The position numbers were made by a program, and so were the translations under genes. Positions 3,267 to 31,812 of a stretch of DNA of 57,329 nt are shown piece after piece. The DNA comes from Acidimicrobiia bacterium (GTDB taxonomy: Bacteria > Actinomycetota > Acidimicrobiia > Acidimicrobiales > Aldehydirespiratoraceae), in contig JAHQYM010000004.1 in NCBI GenBank assembly GCA_024421095.1, forward strand, positions 1 through 57,329, in the 5' to 3' direction. Positions within the stretch are counted from its first letter, which is position 1. Each line of letters opens with the position of its first letter. Below the pieces are notes generated by a model. That model made no database searches. It saw nothing but the letters and a program-made list of their open reading frames with translations, and was not told the origin of the DNA.

Positions 3267-6167
3267 ATGGATACCGATATGCGTGTTCAACAGGGATTTG
3301 AGTTTCTGCTGGACTCACAAGGCGAACAAGATATCCGCAGCCGATTAGCGCACCTCCTCAAAGAAATGGGCGCGGGAGATTACAAACTGGAAGTACGCGT
3401 CGGCACTGGCGCAGCTGACCTTGTGTGCCACCAGTACCGAGTGGTGATCGAAACCAAAGCCCGAAACGAGGCTGACCCAACAAAATCAAGATCGGGAACC
3501 AGCGAAACTCAATTCGAGCAGCTATCTCGATATGTCCAAACGCTTGCCGAAGGCCCCTTCACCGGTGGCGAAGAACGACCTTGGCGAGGGTTCTTGACAG
3601 ACGGCCGCCTTTGGTGGGGTTGGGAGTGGAACGCCGCAAGTGGGGCTTTCCAAACGCAAGATGGGCACTTGACCCCTCTGTCCAGTGCGAAACGCGTACG
3701 CATGACCGCTGTCGACGGCTTCCGCGAGTTCGTCAACCGGTATCTTGCGCCAGAGGCTCGCCGTGGTATGCCCCCGCCGCCATTTCCTTTGCGAATATTG
3801 TTTGACCCGTATATCAAAGAACTCCAAGCACTGTTGCCAAAAGTCGAATCGCAGCCCTCCTACGCAACAAAGTTCAATTTATGGTGGCGTACATTGCAAA
3901 GTTCGGGGTTGGTTGGCCCCGGTGCGGTCGGTCAAGCACACAACTTCGCTGAACACACAATCCTTGTTGTCGCCGCTCGCATGATTGTGCTCGCGGCGCG
4001 AGACGGTTCGCGTGTTGATGAACTACCTGAAGCGGTTGCAGATGGTTTTTGTGCCTGGCTCGGAGATTTCGAAGCTGGCTCGGTACTTTTGGAACGTCTG
4101 GCTCGCAGCGTTACGAAATATGACTGGCGAAGCGCCGATCGAGATTTGCTCAAAGAGTTGTATCACGATTTGGTTGATCGAGATGACCGCAAGGAATTCG
4201 GCGAATATTATACTCCTGATTGGCTGGCTGCTGATGTCGTGGATCAAGTGCTAATGAAAGATCCAGCCCGTCTGGATGCGGCAATCCAAGCCGCAGCACG
4301 AGCGATTGGCGTTGCTCAGAGTGCTGATGATGAACCGATGCGGGCATTTTCGGTTCTTGATCCTGCGTGTGGTTCTGGTACGTTCTTGTTTTGGTCAGCC
4401 AAAGCGATCACTAAACGTATTCGTGCGGCACACCCTCTTTTGGTTGGTTTCTCACGGGAGATCGTAGCGGCGATGGTGACTGGTTTGGATGTGCATCCGG
4501 TAGCTGTTGAGATGGCAAAAGCAACCCTAGCTACGGCTTTGCCAGCAGGTGCCGCGGTGCCTCTTCGTGTGCATCTTGCAGACGCATTGCTGCACTCACA
4601 ACAGACACAGCAAAACCTTCAGGGAACGCTTGGGGTTTTTTCGGCGCGTGGTCAACGCATTGATATCCCAGCAGCGGTCATTGAAGCACCCAACGCCGAT
4701 TCTCTGATTGCTTCCCTCGTTGATGCCGCCGTGGGGAACCGCAAATTAGTCACTACGGATCCAGAAACTCAGGAGATGCTCGGTGGAGTCGTAAAGCAGT
4801 TATCGAACGCCATTACCGACGAAGGCAGCCATTTTTGGCGTTGGTATATCGGCAACCAGGTTGCTCCGGCGGCGTTGAATCGGCAGAAGGTTATGGCGAT
4901 TGTCGCCAATCCGCCGTGGTTGGTGGCCAACGATACGCCCACAGGCATACGCAAAGACCAGTTGGCAACTCTCAGTGAACGGTACGGTTTGCGTCCGAAG
5001 GCAAGGTGGTCTGCGAAAGGAGATCTGGCCTCGGTATTCTCGGCGCGTGTGGCCGATCTTTATTTGGAGGACGGTGGCGCGTTCGGTCTTGTGCTGCCTG
5101 GAAGTGCGTTGATTAACCAGACATGGAAAACTTGGCGTTTAGGTGCTTGGGGTGACGCGCACGTCGATTTTGAGACTGTTGCGAGTTATGATGACGTTGA
5201 ACCGCCACCGTTTCCTCATTCTCCGAACGGTACTTGCACTGTTGTCGGCAAACGCAACAGTGCTGGCGGGCAATCGTGGAGCGATGCCGAGAAGCTTGCC
5301 TATGCGGGAGACCCGGTAACCCCAACGGTCACAGCAATGAGGTGCCGGGAGAGCGTTGCGTCGCGGTATGCAAAAAGGTTTCGGCGTGGTGCTGTGGCCT
5401 CACCTCTCGGACTTTGTTTAGTGCTGGCCCCGATTCAAATAGATGATGGCATAGCCACCGTTACCACGAAAGCATCCACCAAGGCTCCTTGGAAGGGTGT
5501 GAGTTTTACAACGGTTGTTGAGACCGAGGCGTTGCACAGGACACTTCGAGCGCAAACTCTGATGCCGTTTGTGTGTGCGCCCGATGCCTATTTTATCGCG
5601 CCGTTATCCATTGAGCGCACCACTGTTTTGGAGCTTCACAACCACGAGTTCAAAACACGATTACCTCTCACGCACGAGTACTGGGAAGAAGCTGAAACTC
5701 GGTATGCACGCAACCGGTCTGAAACGGCTGGGGTGACGTTATCGCAAAACGTAGATTTCCAGAGAACGCTCACGAGGCAAATCACCGCAAGCGATTCAAA
5801 GAAACTTAGCAAGGTTTTCTACAACAAATCTGGGGATAGGTTGAGGGCATGTCGGGGGCCAATCGGGCTTTTAGCAGATGACAAGACTTACTGGTATGTG
5901 GCATCGTCAGAAGATGAAGCATTGTATTTGATTGGAGTGCTGAACGCTGATTGCTTGCAGGAAGCGTGGCGAGAATCGAAGACCTCGAAACTGCATTTCG
6001 ATACTAACCCCCTGAAACATGTGCCCGTTCCGGCGTTCGATCGGAAGTCTGCATTACACGCTCGGGTTGTGGCGCAAGCGCGAAAATCTGAGCGGCAGCC
6101 CAAGGCTGCTCGTGTTGTGCTCAATGATGCGATTGCTGAATTGCTTCCAGATTATGCCGTTCTGTAG
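3267..6167 (+). CDS. Single-polypeptide restriction-modification enzyme (type IIG-like, Eco57I-type methylase)
   Basis: The 966-residue protein combines nuclease and methyltransferase. Residues 1-70 hold a PD-(D/E)xK-like pattern, D51 in GAADLV and E62-x-K64 in VVIETK. A helical connector leads to EFGEYYTPDWLA and the AdoMet motif I LDPACGSGTF starting near residue 364. The catalytic motif IV of amino-methylases is NPPW at 548-551 (IVANPPWLV). The C-terminal third resembles a target-recognition region ending LHFDTNPLKHVPVPAFD. Predicted role: DNA cleavage and adenine methylation by one protein, host defence. The ATG at 3267 has GAGGAAG 9 nt upstream. No separate specificity subunit or methylase lies nearby. 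Its last 47 bp overlap the convergent DUF4202 gene. Confidence 0.85.
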   Translation: MDTDMRVQQGFEFLLDSQGEQDIRSRLAHLLKEMGAGDYKLEVRVGTGAADLVCHQYRVVIETKARNEADPTKSRSGTSETQFEQLSRYVQTLAEGPFTGGEERPWRGFLTDGRLWWGWEWNAASGAFQTQDGHLTPLSSAKRVRMTAVDGFREFVNRYLAPEARRGMPPPPFPLRILFDPYIKELQALLPKVESQPSYATKFNLWWRTLQSSGLVGPGAVGQAHNFAEHTILVVAARMIVLAARDGSRVDELPEAVADGFCAWLGDFEAGSVLLERLARSVTKYDWRSADRDLLKELYHDLVDRDDRKEFGEYYTPDWLAADVVDQVLMKDPARLDAAIQAAARAIGVAQSADDEPMRAFSVLDPACGSGTFLFWSAKAITKRIRAAHPLLVGFSREIVAAMVTGLDVHPVAVEMAKATLATALPAGAAVPLRVHLADALLHSQQTQQNLQGTLGVFSARGQRIDIPAAVIEAPNADSLIASLVDAAVGNRKLVTTDPETQEMLGGVVKQLSNAITDEGSHFWRWYIGNQVAPAALNRQKVMAIVANPPWLVANDTPTGIRKDQLATLSERYGLRPKARWSAKGDLASVFSARVADLYLEDGGAFGLVLPGSALINQTWKTWRLGAWGDAHVDFETVASYDDVEPPPFPHSPNGTCTVVGKRNSAGGQSWSDAEKLAYAGDPVTPTVTAMRCRESVASRYAKRFRRGAVASPLGLCLVLAPIQIDDGIATVTTKASTKAPWKGVSFTTVVETEALHRTLRAQTLMPFVCAPDAYFIAPLSIERTTVLELHNHEFKTRLPLTHEYWEEAETRYARNRSETAGVTLSQNVDFQRTLTRQITASDSKKLSKVFYNKSGDRLRACRGPIGLLADDKTYWYVASSEDEALYLIGVLNADCLQEAWRESKTSKLHFDTNPLKHVPVPAFDRKSALHARVVAQARKSERQPKAARVVLNDAIAELLPDYAVL

Positions 6168-28129: not shown

Positions 28130-29323
28130 GTGACCGTTCCCGTTGCTGTTTTGGGTTCTAGTGGCTCCATTGGGACTCAAACACTTGATGTGATTCGGGC
28201 TGAACCTGACCGTTACCGGGTGGCGGCGCTTGGGGTGGCTAACTCTGTTGATATTGTTTGTGAGCAAGCGCACGAGTTCCGTCCTGAAGTTGTTGTTGTA
28301 GCTGATGCGGATTGCGCGAAAGGTTTGCGCGGCCGTTTGCCGGCGGGAACGGAACTGCTTGTTGGTGCGGATGCGTTGGTGTTGGCTGTGCAATGCGCCG
28401 ACACTGTGATCAATGGGGTGGTTGGTTTTGCTGGGTTGCCGGTGACGTTGGCAACTCTTGAGGCTGGTAAACGGTTGGGTTTGGCGAACAAAGAATCACT
28501 TATCGCTGCGGGTCCTCTGGTGCAACGGGCTTGGACGACTGAGGGTGCGGAATTGTTGCCGGTAGACAGTGAACATTGCGCTATTCATCAGTGCCTTCGC
28601 GGCGAGAGTGTTTTCGATGTGGGGTCTGTGGACTGCCAAAGAACGGGAGCGGTGGAGGTGGCGGAACTGGTGTTGACGGCTAGTGGTGGGCCGTTTTGGG
28701 GTCGCTCCAAGGCGGAACTTGCTGGGGTGACGGTTGCTGATGCGTTGGCGCATCCTACTTGGCAGATGGGTCCGAAGATAACGGTCGATTCGAGTACCTT
28801 GATGAATAAGGGGCTTGAGGTTATTGAGGCTCATGAATTGTTTGGTGTTGATTATGATCAGATTCGGGTGTTGATTCATCCTCAGTCGATTGTCCATTCG
28901 TTGGTTAGTTTCGTTGATGGGTCTACGTTGGCGCAACTTTCGCTGCCCGATATGCGCTTGTGCATCGGTTATGTTTTGGCGTTTCCGCGGCGTTGTCGAG
29001 CGAGTTTTGGGAAGATTGATTGGGCGGATGTGCCCGGTTTGGAGTTCGCCTTAGCAGATAGCGATACTTTCAGATGCTTGACCTTGGCTTATGACGCTGG
29101 CAGAGCCGCGCAGACGGCTCCGGCTTGGTTGAGCGCTGCTAATGAGGTTGCGGTTGAGGCGTTTTTGGCTGGGGTGATCCCTTGGTTTGCGATTGCTGAT
29201 GTTGTGGAGGCCGTGATGCAAGTCTGGCCGGGTGTGGTGGCGAGTGATGTTGAGGCGGTTCTTGAAGTTGACCGCGCCGCCCGTGAAGTGGCTCGCGCTA
29301 CGATTCAAAGAACTAAGTTATGA
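28130..29323 (+). CDS. dxr: 1-deoxy-D-xylulose 5-phosphate reductoisomerase
   Basis: Dxr performs the second step of the MEP isoprenoid pathway, NADPH-dependent. NADPH site: AVLGSSGSIGTQTLDVI. Metal and substrate residues are seen in ANKESLIAAG, LPVDSEHCAIHQ, TASGGPFWG, HPTWQMGPKITVDSSTLMNK (split here by position 210-230) and GLEVIEAHELF. GTG start one base after cdsA. Overlaps rseP by 4 bp. Confidence 0.96.
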   Translation: MTVPVAVLGSSGSIGTQTLDVIRAEPDRYRVAALGVANSVDIVCEQAHEFRPEVVVVADADCAKGLRGRLPAGTELLVGADALVLAVQCADTVINGVVGFAGLPVTLATLEAGKRLGLANKESLIAAGPLVQRAWTTEGAELLPVDSEHCAIHQCLRGESVFDVGSVDCQRTGAVEVAELVLTASGGPFWGRSKAELAGVTVADALAHPTWQMGPKITVDSSTLMNKGLEVIEAHELFGVDYDQIRVLIHPQSIVHSLVSFVDGSTLAQLSLPDMRLCIGYVLAFPRRCRASFGKIDWADVPGLEFALADSDTFRCLTLAYDAGRAAQTAPAWLSAANEVAVEAFLAGVIPWFAIADVVEAVMQVWPGVVASDVEAVLEVDRAAREVARATIQRTKL

Positions 29324-30921
29324 CCGACACCCCAATTTCTCAACGCCGACTTCCATTGTTGGCAGAGGGCCGTAGAGCTCCTGACACTGCGCTAAATCTG
29401 GGTGCGCCGGCGAACCTCGCTGCCGGTGATTCCACGTCATTTATTGGACTAGCTATTTTGATTACGGGTTTGCTTGCATTGGGCGTTTTCGTTAGTTGGG
29501 GTTGGGCACTGATTATTTTGTGTTTGGTGTTCATGATTTTTATGCACGAGTTGGGTCATTATCTCACTGCTCGTTGGACTGGTATGAAGGTGGTGGAGTT
29601 TTTTATTGGTTTCGGTCCGCGTTTGTGGTCTTTTCGTCTTGGTGAGACCACTTTTGGCGTAAAAGGGATTCCGGCGGGTGCCTATGTGCGGATCATTGGC
29701 ATGAACAACCTTGATGTGGTTGCCCCTCAAGATGAAAACCGCACTTATCGTGTGAAGTCTTTTCCACGTAAGTTGCTTGTGGTGAGTGCTGGTTCGGCGA
29801 TGCATTTCCTGATGGCGATCGTGTTGTTGTTTGTAGTTTTTGCCCTTAACGGCAAGCTCTCCGTGGACGGCCCTTGGTCGGTTGCGCGGGTGAGTCCACT
29901 GAGTACGGCGAACGTTATTGGTGTCCAACCGGGCGATGAAATCGTTTCGGTTGATGGCGTGGAGATTGGCAGTTTCGAACAACTTGGTGATGTGGTCAGA
30001 ACTCGTGGTGGTCAAGAGGTGGAGGTTGTGCTGAGGCGCGCTGAGCAGACGTTGAGCGAAACTGCGGTGTTGGGTTATCGGTTGAGTGCTGCGGGCGAGA
30101 AGGCGTTTATTGGTTTATCGGAGGATAATCCCGGGTTGTTGGCCGGCGACCGAATCCTCGCTGTTGATGGGGTTAAGGTATCTTCTTGGGATGATGTTCT
30201 AGAGGTGATTGATGGTCGGCTCGGTGAACCTTTGACTTTTATTGTGCTGCCTGCCGCAAGCCCTGATGAGTTGCTTGTTGTGGAGGAGACGGTGGTGGAT
30301 CACGTGCCGTCTCGTGGGGTTGCAACAACGGGCTTTTTGGGTGTTGGTCCACAATTCTCACTGGAGCGTTTCGGGGTTTTGGGGAGTGTTCGAGAAGCCA
30401 TTGTCGGGTTTGGTTCTTACACCAAGATGTTTATGGTGGCTATGTCCCATTTGGTGACGGGTGGCGGTCTTCAGAACTTTGTGACAGACACAGTCACTGG
30501 TGATTTTGGCGCTACGCAAGAACCTGCGCCAACTGCAACTGGGGAGGATGCTAGAGCGTCCGCTGGTCGTGGAGCGGCCACTAGTGATGCAGACCCAGAT
30601 CGGATCATCTCCATTTATGGTGCGGCCCGTGTGGGTGAACAACTTGCTGACGATAGCTTTCAGCGTTTGTTGACTTTCTTGGCGATCCTCAACATTTCGA
30701 TCGGTTTAATCAACTTGTTGCCGTTACCGCCTTTGGATGGCGGGCATGTAGCGGTGGCGGTTTATGAGCGGTTGCGTTCTTTTGGTGGTCGCCGTCATCA
30801 GGTGGACTATGCGAAAGTGTTGCCAGTTGCCTATGGCGCGTTGGTTTTGTTGTTGGCGATCGGGTTGCTTGCGGTGTTCCGCGACATTGCCGACCCGCTC
30901 AACGTTCCACGGAACGGCTAA
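29320..30921 (+). CDS. rseP: Site-2 metalloprotease RseP/Rip1
   Basis: An intramembrane zinc protease that cleaves anti-sigma factors. The zinc motif is H76-E-L-G-H80 in FMHELGHYLTARW; the third ligand lies in LLPLPPLDGGH near the C-terminus. Two PDZ-like regions sit between (IGVQPGDEIVSVDGVEIG and NPGLLAGDRILAVDGVKV). An Ala/Glu/Thr-rich insert of about 35 residues occurs around residue 395-425. ATGA overlap with dxr. In many actinobacteria ispG follows; here the locus ends and a convergent SelW-like gene follows after 15 bp. Confidence 0.94.
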   Translation: MTDTPISQRRLPLLAEGRRAPDTALNLGAPANLAAGDSTSFIGLAILITGLLALGVFVSWGWALIILCLVFMIFMHELGHYLTARWTGMKVVEFFIGFGPRLWSFRLGETTFGVKGIPAGAYVRIIGMNNLDVVAPQDENRTYRVKSFPRKLLVVSAGSAMHFLMAIVLLFVVFALNGKLSVDGPWSVARVSPLSTANVIGVQPGDEIVSVDGVEIGSFEQLGDVVRTRGGQEVEVVLRRAEQTLSETAVLGYRLSAAGEKAFIGLSEDNPGLLAGDRILAVDGVKVSSWDDVLEVIDGRLGEPLTFIVLPAASPDELLVVEETVVDHVPSRGVATTGFLGVGPQFSLERFGVLGSVREAIVGFGSYTKMFMVAMSHLVTGGGLQNFVTDTVTGDFGATQEPAPTATGEDARASAGRGAATSDADPDRIISIYGAARVGEQLADDSFQRLLTFLAILNISIGLINLLPLPPLDGGHVAVAVYERLRSFGGRRHQVDYAKVLPVAYGALVLLLAIGLLAVFRDIADPLNVPRNG

Positions 30922-30936: not shown

Positions 30937-31209
30937 TTAGCTGGACGCTTGTCTGGAGTGGGTGACGCTACCGATGAATTCTTCGAAGCTGTGCAACACC
31001 TCTTCGGGATTGGCGTGGCATCCTGTTTTGTCTTTAGAGTAGATCACTTTGTCGTTGACGGTCACGTCAAAGACCCCGTTGGATCCGGTTGTGAGGTTTA
31101 ACCGCTCAATGATGTGTTGATGGTTGGAGAGTAGGTCTTGGGCTGCGCTCACGGCGTGGCTCAGGTAGTTTCAAGGAACGCAATAGGTGATGTCAATTTG
31201 GTATTTCAT
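30937..31209 (-). CDS. SelW/Rdx-family protein, candidate selenoprotein (in-frame TGA at 31171-31173)
   Basis: From the ATG at 31209 the frame gives 90 residues if one TGA, codon 13, is read. The start is MKYQIDITYCVP-U-NYLSHA, matching the Rdx family N-terminus (I-x-Y-C-x-x-C-x-x-x-x-R/H-A) with Sec in place of the second Cys: C10-V-P-U13. The rest fits: GSNGVFDVTVNDKVIYSKD corresponds to the G-x-F-E-V-x-V-D-G strand, then an Asn/Glu-rich helix. No strong ribosome site is seen. A possible SECIS hairpin follows at 31142-31160. Read conventionally, only a truncated GTG-started fragment would exist. It lies convergent to rseP and divergent from tpx, a thiol peroxidase, consistent with a redox role. 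Confidence 0.85.
31142..31160 (-). promoter_or_regulatory. SECIS-like hairpin of the SelW-like gene
   Basis: On the transcript, starting 11 nt after the TGA: outer pair GC/GC, a 2x2 internal loop (CA/CA), upper stem CGC/GCG and apical loop CGTGA with G at its second position, 18-22 nt from the TGA. A competing fold (CAC/GTG closing a GCC loop at +16) is also possible. Weaker than the other two hairpins; folded by eye. Confidence 0.45.
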
Positions 31210-31311
31210 GCGAAGCAGGCTAGCAGCTTTTTCGATTCTTGTGTCTTTCTTGGTTGCGTCGGTTCTAGGCTTGCTGAAGCAGTTTTATCCACCAATTTGG
31301 GAGCACATCAA

Positions 31312-31812
31312 ATGGCTGAGATCACGTTTCACGGCACAACCATAAACACTAGTGGTTCGTTACCGGCGGTTGGCAGCGAAGCGCCACCGTTGGTGCTTAC
31401 GGGCAAAGATGGTGGCTCGATTTCGTTAGCGGATTTCGCTGGTCAACGCCTTGTCTTGAACATCTTCCCTTCTGTAGACACCCCCACTTGCGCCATGAGT
31501 GTTCGTACTTTCAACGAGCGTGCGGCGAGCCTTGAAAACGCCACGGTACTTTGTGTTTCTGCCGACCTGCCCATGGCCCAGAACCGCTTTTGCGGCGCCG
31601 AAGCCATTGAGCGTGTGCAGACTGGTTCCACTTTCAGGAATCCTCAAGTGTTAGACGATTACGGGGTGCGTATTGTGGATGGCCCTCTTGAAGGTCTTGC
31701 GGCTCGTGCGGTGGTGGTGCTTGACGAGACTGTAACTGTGTTGCATGCTGAACTTGTTGGTGAGTTGGCTGACCAGCCAGACTACGAAGCCGCGCTTAGC
31801 GTTTTGCAGTAA
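31312..31812 (+). CDS. tpx: Thiol peroxidase (2-Cys peroxiredoxin, Tpx type)
   Basis: Tpx reduces hydroperoxides with thioredoxin as donor. The peroxidatic Cys is C60 in FPSVDTPTCAMSVRTFNE and the resolving Cys is C94 in MAQNRFCGAE, the Tpx-specific spacing. The ATG at 31312 has GGGAG upstream; the frame is open to 31138 but that part has no protein character and overlaps the antisense SelW-like start. This enzyme keeps Cys, unlike its divergent neighbour. Confidence 0.95.
   Translation: MAEITFHGTTINTSGSLPAVGSEAPPLVLTGKDGGSISLADFAGQRLVLNIFPSVDTPTCAMSVRTFNERAASLENATVLCVSADLPMAQNRFCGAEAIERVQTGSTFRNPQVLDDYGVRIVDGPLEGLAARAVVVLDETVTVLHAELVGELADQPDYEAALSVLQ

Follow-up and report, generated by a model that had tools for sequence, protein, structure and literature searches.

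The window, which here denotes the whole analyzed stretch of 57,329 nucleotides from an Acidimicrobiia genome, very probably contains a functional gene for a bacterial SelW-like selenoprotein in which the UGA at codon 13 is read as selenocysteine (Sec). We examined the gene, its motif and fold, its conservation, hairpin and synteny, and the Sec machinery of the genome computationally, and the features are listed in Table 1. SelW-like selenoproteins have been known from bacteria since about 2005, and the window gene adds another member. They formed the most abundant selenoprotein family both in the Sargasso Sea data (PMC1088965) and in the Global Ocean Sampling (PMC2398784), they were also described from Symbiobacterium, at that time placed in the Actinobacteria (PMC1794560), and a 2026 review characterizes them as CxxU proteins with one Sec (PMC13188914). 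The window product resembles these proteins in its Rdx family, CxxU motif, single Sec, downstream SECIS and predicted redox role, but its genome differs in having two selW copies and a divergent tpx neighbor. A search of the open-access literature for selenocysteine in combination with Actinomarina retrieved nothing.

Table 1. Location of selW, its predicted decoding signals and the adjacent genes in the window.
Feature	Position	Strand	Basis
selW-like selenoprotein gene, 90 codons, CVPU active site	30937..31209	-	PF10262, TIGR02174, AlphaFold model
In-frame TGA (UGA), predicted to be read as selenocysteine 13	31171..31173	-	TGA also in relatives
Bacterial SECIS-like hairpin, loop CGUGA, 4/6 consensus pairs formed in window copy	31143..31159	-	Alignment and folding
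Divergent intergenic region selW/tpx, 102 bp	31210..31311		Sequence; order conserved in family
tpx, thiol peroxidase	31312..31812	+	NF001808, 214.6 bits
rseP (RIP metalloprotease), convergent with selW	29320..30921	+	TIGR00054, 178.8 bits

The gene, its fold and the selenocysteine machinery

An earlier reading of the stretch from the sequence only had proposed, without naming a strand, a frame beginning MKYQIDITYC with a TGA at the second cysteine of a CxxC motif. This frame was recovered on the minus strand, where it ends with a TAA stop codon and gives the read-through product MKYQIDITYCVPUNYLSHAV..., with a single TGA. The plus-strand reading of the same interval was rejected, since the frame is not open there. 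Ordinary gene calling shortens or overlooks selenoprotein genes of this kind.

When the TGA was translated as Cys, the product scored above the cut-offs of both PF10262 (Pfam Rdx; 62.8 bits, cut-off 22.6) and TIGR02174 (NCBIfam; 48.1 bits, cut-off 34.2), in agreement with the proposed SelW/Rdx identity. The score against the equivalog model NF041051 (SelTWH_Campy, Campylobacter group) was 66.3 bits, which is below the curated cut-off of 88 bits, so that we claim membership at the level of the family and nothing narrower. Positions 10 and 13, the Cys and the U of the CxxU motif, were invariant columns in the alignment. The AlphaFold model (pLDDT 91.4, pTM 0.81) predicts a thioredoxin-like SelW fold, with a strand at residues 3–10 followed by a helix at residues 16–33, and the CxxU motif placed after the first strand. 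The best superposition was obtained with 2obk_E (Z 13.9, rmsd 1.4 Å over 80 residues), and the solved bacterial SelW-related proteins (2fa8, 2obk, 2oka, 3dex, 2p0g, 2ojl) all share the fold (Z 13.5–13.9, rmsd 1.4–2.5 Å) at a sequence identity of just 24–29%, with CxxC in 2fa8 where the window protein has CxxU. Mouse SelW (2npb) has the fold in common at a lower similarity (Z 8.7, 16% identity), and CxxU is present in both.

The sequence-only reading had made its proposal dependent on Sec machinery in the genome, and all components sought were found. The selA and selB genes lie next to each other, a tRNA-Sec with the anticodon UCA was located on contig C101 (67 bits), and selD was present (L023, 1477–2436, minus strand). 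The selD gene is itself probably a selenoprotein gene, since it carries an in-frame TGA of its own in the motif GAGUGCK.

A hairpin had also been proposed at 31142–31160, and this segment coincides with a conserved stem that spans 31159–31143. The consensus from 64 distinct sequences has a stem of six pairs and a five-base loop that starts 17 nt after the UGA. The second and third loop positions are GU in every one of the 64, and the loop of the window copy likewise begins 17 nt 3' of the UGA. In eukaryotic SELENOW, the SECIS is located in the 3' UTR, whereas the SECIS-like hairpin of the window gene directly follows the UGA. Mean pairing in the 64 sequences was 0.924 as compared to 0.874 ± 0.006 in synonymous shuffles (none of 500 as high), and the mean folding energy was -11.9 as compared to -10.2 ± 0.23 kcal/mol; these figures are optimistic because the shuffles, in which sequences that share an amino acid in a column exchanged their codons for it, do not keep the phylogeny. 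Judged from the aligned sequences, the conservation of the hairpin exceeds the expectation from synonymous codon choice, and it is weaker in the window copy, which forms one pair fewer than its paralog and belongs to the nine of 67 sequences with four pairs or less. Single-strand folding predicts a structure other than the consensus hairpin for the window segment, and an Rfam scan of the selW region matched no family at E 10.

Conservation of the TGA codon and the two selW copies

We searched 395 genomes of the class with the Rdx profile and obtained a match in 154 of them. Exactly one in-frame TGA was present in 149 of the 150 matches listed, the sole Cys exception being a CTQC protein from a genome without a selA match (G004). 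Six further genomes gave weaker matches outside the 150, with one TGA in one of them, two TGAs in four, and a contig-end fragment in the last, which is silent on the active site because the match begins at profile position 36. A Cys or TGA codon was thus found at this position in all relatives with a readable active site, as the sequence-only reading had anticipated. The selA gene was identified in 142 of the 154 genomes with selW as compared to 117 of the 241 without (Fisher p 5e-21, with related genomes that are not independent); 11 genomes have a TGA-type selW without a selA match, and most of these genomes are incomplete. The scan delineates a lineage in which SelW normally takes the Sec form; across the phylum as a whole, Cys forms of Rdx coexist with Sec forms. 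When the single window protein was used to scan named genomes, only two relatives were returned, from an uncultured Acidimicrobiales and a Phycisphaerales metagenome-assembled genome. The former is the closest relative with a name, and the class is referred to as Acidimicrobiia-like on its account. The Rdx proteins found in a plasmid collection were all distant, at under 60% identity.

A second selW with TGA at the same codon was identified on contig C139 (L012, 4365–4628, minus strand), which is presumed to belong to the same organism and has a similar G+C content (0.548 versus 0.547). The C139 gene is 88% identical to a copy from the same genus. Next to it, on its downstream side, is a decarboxylase gene remnant with an internal deletion (4098–4353, minus strand), of which no intact counterpart of the same kind was found in the genome. 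Five genomes of the same genus have one selW each, and in four of these selW is divergent from tpx and precedes a gene for this pyridoxal-dependent decarboxylase, after which rseP is located; no such decarboxylase gene is located between selW and rseP in the window. A plausible history is that the selW-decarboxylase segment was duplicated, that both sites lost the decarboxylase, and that selW at the ancestral position between tpx and rseP has evolved faster than the other copy. In the tree, the window gene is placed on a long branch (0.81). In the part after the TGA, pN was 0.206 and pS 0.715 between the window and C139 genes, the changes were distributed as 19/10/36 over the three codon positions, and 22 amino-acid changes were counted as compared to 39.5 ± 2.8 in simulations under neutrality. 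The window gene is a paralog that evolves fast while under purifying selection. Chance as the origin of the in-frame TGA is excluded by the TGA at the same codon in the paralog, by the single TGA in nearly all listed matches of the class, and by the codon-position pattern of the changes.

The gene could alternatively be an ordinary Rdx gene of the CxxC type whose TGA is a sequencing error or a nonsense mutation, as might be suspected from the fragmentation of the assembly into 231 contigs and from the existence of Cys forms in the phylum, but the genome contains the Sec machinery, and the presence of TGA at this codon in the paralog and across independent genomes of the class refutes such an origin, to which we assign a vanishingly small probability. 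It is also conceivable, but unlikely, that the window copy is decaying while the C139 gene does the work, so that decoding of the window UGA would be poor or absent. The long branch makes a reduced function possible, and the weaker hairpin, the altered C-terminal end and the greater similarity of the single same-genus copies to the C139 paralog point in the same direction. That all 77 codons after the TGA are open weighs little against decay, because 13% of the neutral simulations are also stop-free, but the amino-acid changes are far below the neutral number and the invariant alignment columns have been retained.

Gene neighborhood and proposed function

As described in the sequence-only reading, selW is positioned at the end of the rpsB-tsf-pyrH-frr-cdsA-dxr-rseP block, which terminates 15 bp from the selW stop codon in convergent orientation. 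The divergent arrangement with a thiol peroxidase gene was borne out as well, and the suggestion that the two form a redox unit is consistent with a gene order that is common in the family, with no linkage of selW to tpx seen outside the family among the class genomes. The peroxidase contains the motifs SVDTPTC and FCGAEAI, which we take, from what is established for the Tpx family, to hold the peroxidatic and the resolving Cys, respectively. Divergent pairs of a Sec-type selW and this Cys peroxidase gene were observed in genomes of the same genus and in several other genera of the family, and this suggests a shared peroxide-related unit. There is an even chance that SelW and Tpx are neighbors with no functional link and that the divergent order is inherited synteny, as the confinement of the linkage to one family and the occurrence of tpx without selW in genus g3 would indicate; the maintenance of the order over several genera, despite differences in the gap and in the other flank, argues for a link. 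No selW neighbors common to the class as a whole were identified beyond the family.

For the insertion of Sec, the redox chemistry, the partner and the regulation of the product, we infer the following scheme. The UGA would be decoded by SelB with charged tRNA-Sec(UCA) and the SECIS hairpin directly downstream, yielding a 90-residue thioredoxin-fold product in which Cys10 and Sec13 may form a reversible selenenylsulfide. By analogy with other CxxU thioredoxin-fold proteins, it most likely cycles between the selenol/thiol and the selenenylsulfide states, and on the basis of this chemistry its most likely role would be that of a thiol-dependent reductase or electron carrier for oxidized protein thiols. 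The divergent arrangement with a Cys-type thiol peroxidase gene suggests that the two are employed together under peroxide stress.

A separate arrangement was observed in family f12, where a conserved gene with a median length of 339 codons, unrelated to tpx, lies on the strand of selW and either adjoins or overlaps it in eight genomes (L069, L071, L072, L077, L080, L082, L084, L085).

Relatives with two predicted selenocysteines

In genus g33 of the sister family f14, 16 of the 20 SelW genes contain two in-frame active-site TGAs (YUVPU) at a spacing of nine nt (L140–L143, L149–L160), while the remaining four encode CVPU. When a protein tree was built with masking of the motif, the UxxU rows included, 13 in number, required one change of state (support 93/80). 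All 16 UxxU proteins have at least one Cys at, or at most three residues from, the column of Cys64 of the window protein (31018–31020), which is an extra Cys in the window copy in place of the Arg found in most CxxU relatives. We consider it probable that SelW is almost always a selenoprotein in Acidimicrobiia-like bacteria and that UxxU arose once, by replacement of the first Cys by Sec, with one SECIS serving both UGAs and the Cys near the Cys64 column acting as a possible resolving residue.

Two active-site Sec residues have been reported for SELENOW of the UxxU type in amphioxus and Ostreococcus (PMC7539508), an arrangement shared with the g33 relatives; the amphioxus and Ostreococcus proteins are eukaryotic, and the window gene itself is CxxU. 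Reviews describe UxxU for other prokaryotic families and SELENOW-like proteins as CxxU only (PMC9312934, PMC13188914), and the prokaryotic UxxU SelW, which is absent from both, is a more unusual outcome than the window gene. The clade is a natural system for testing the contribution of a second Sec and the decoding of two close UGAs by a single SECIS in bacteria. The change from Arg to Cys at the Cys64 column was also seen to be common to the window copy and part of the UxxU clade (e.g., L140).
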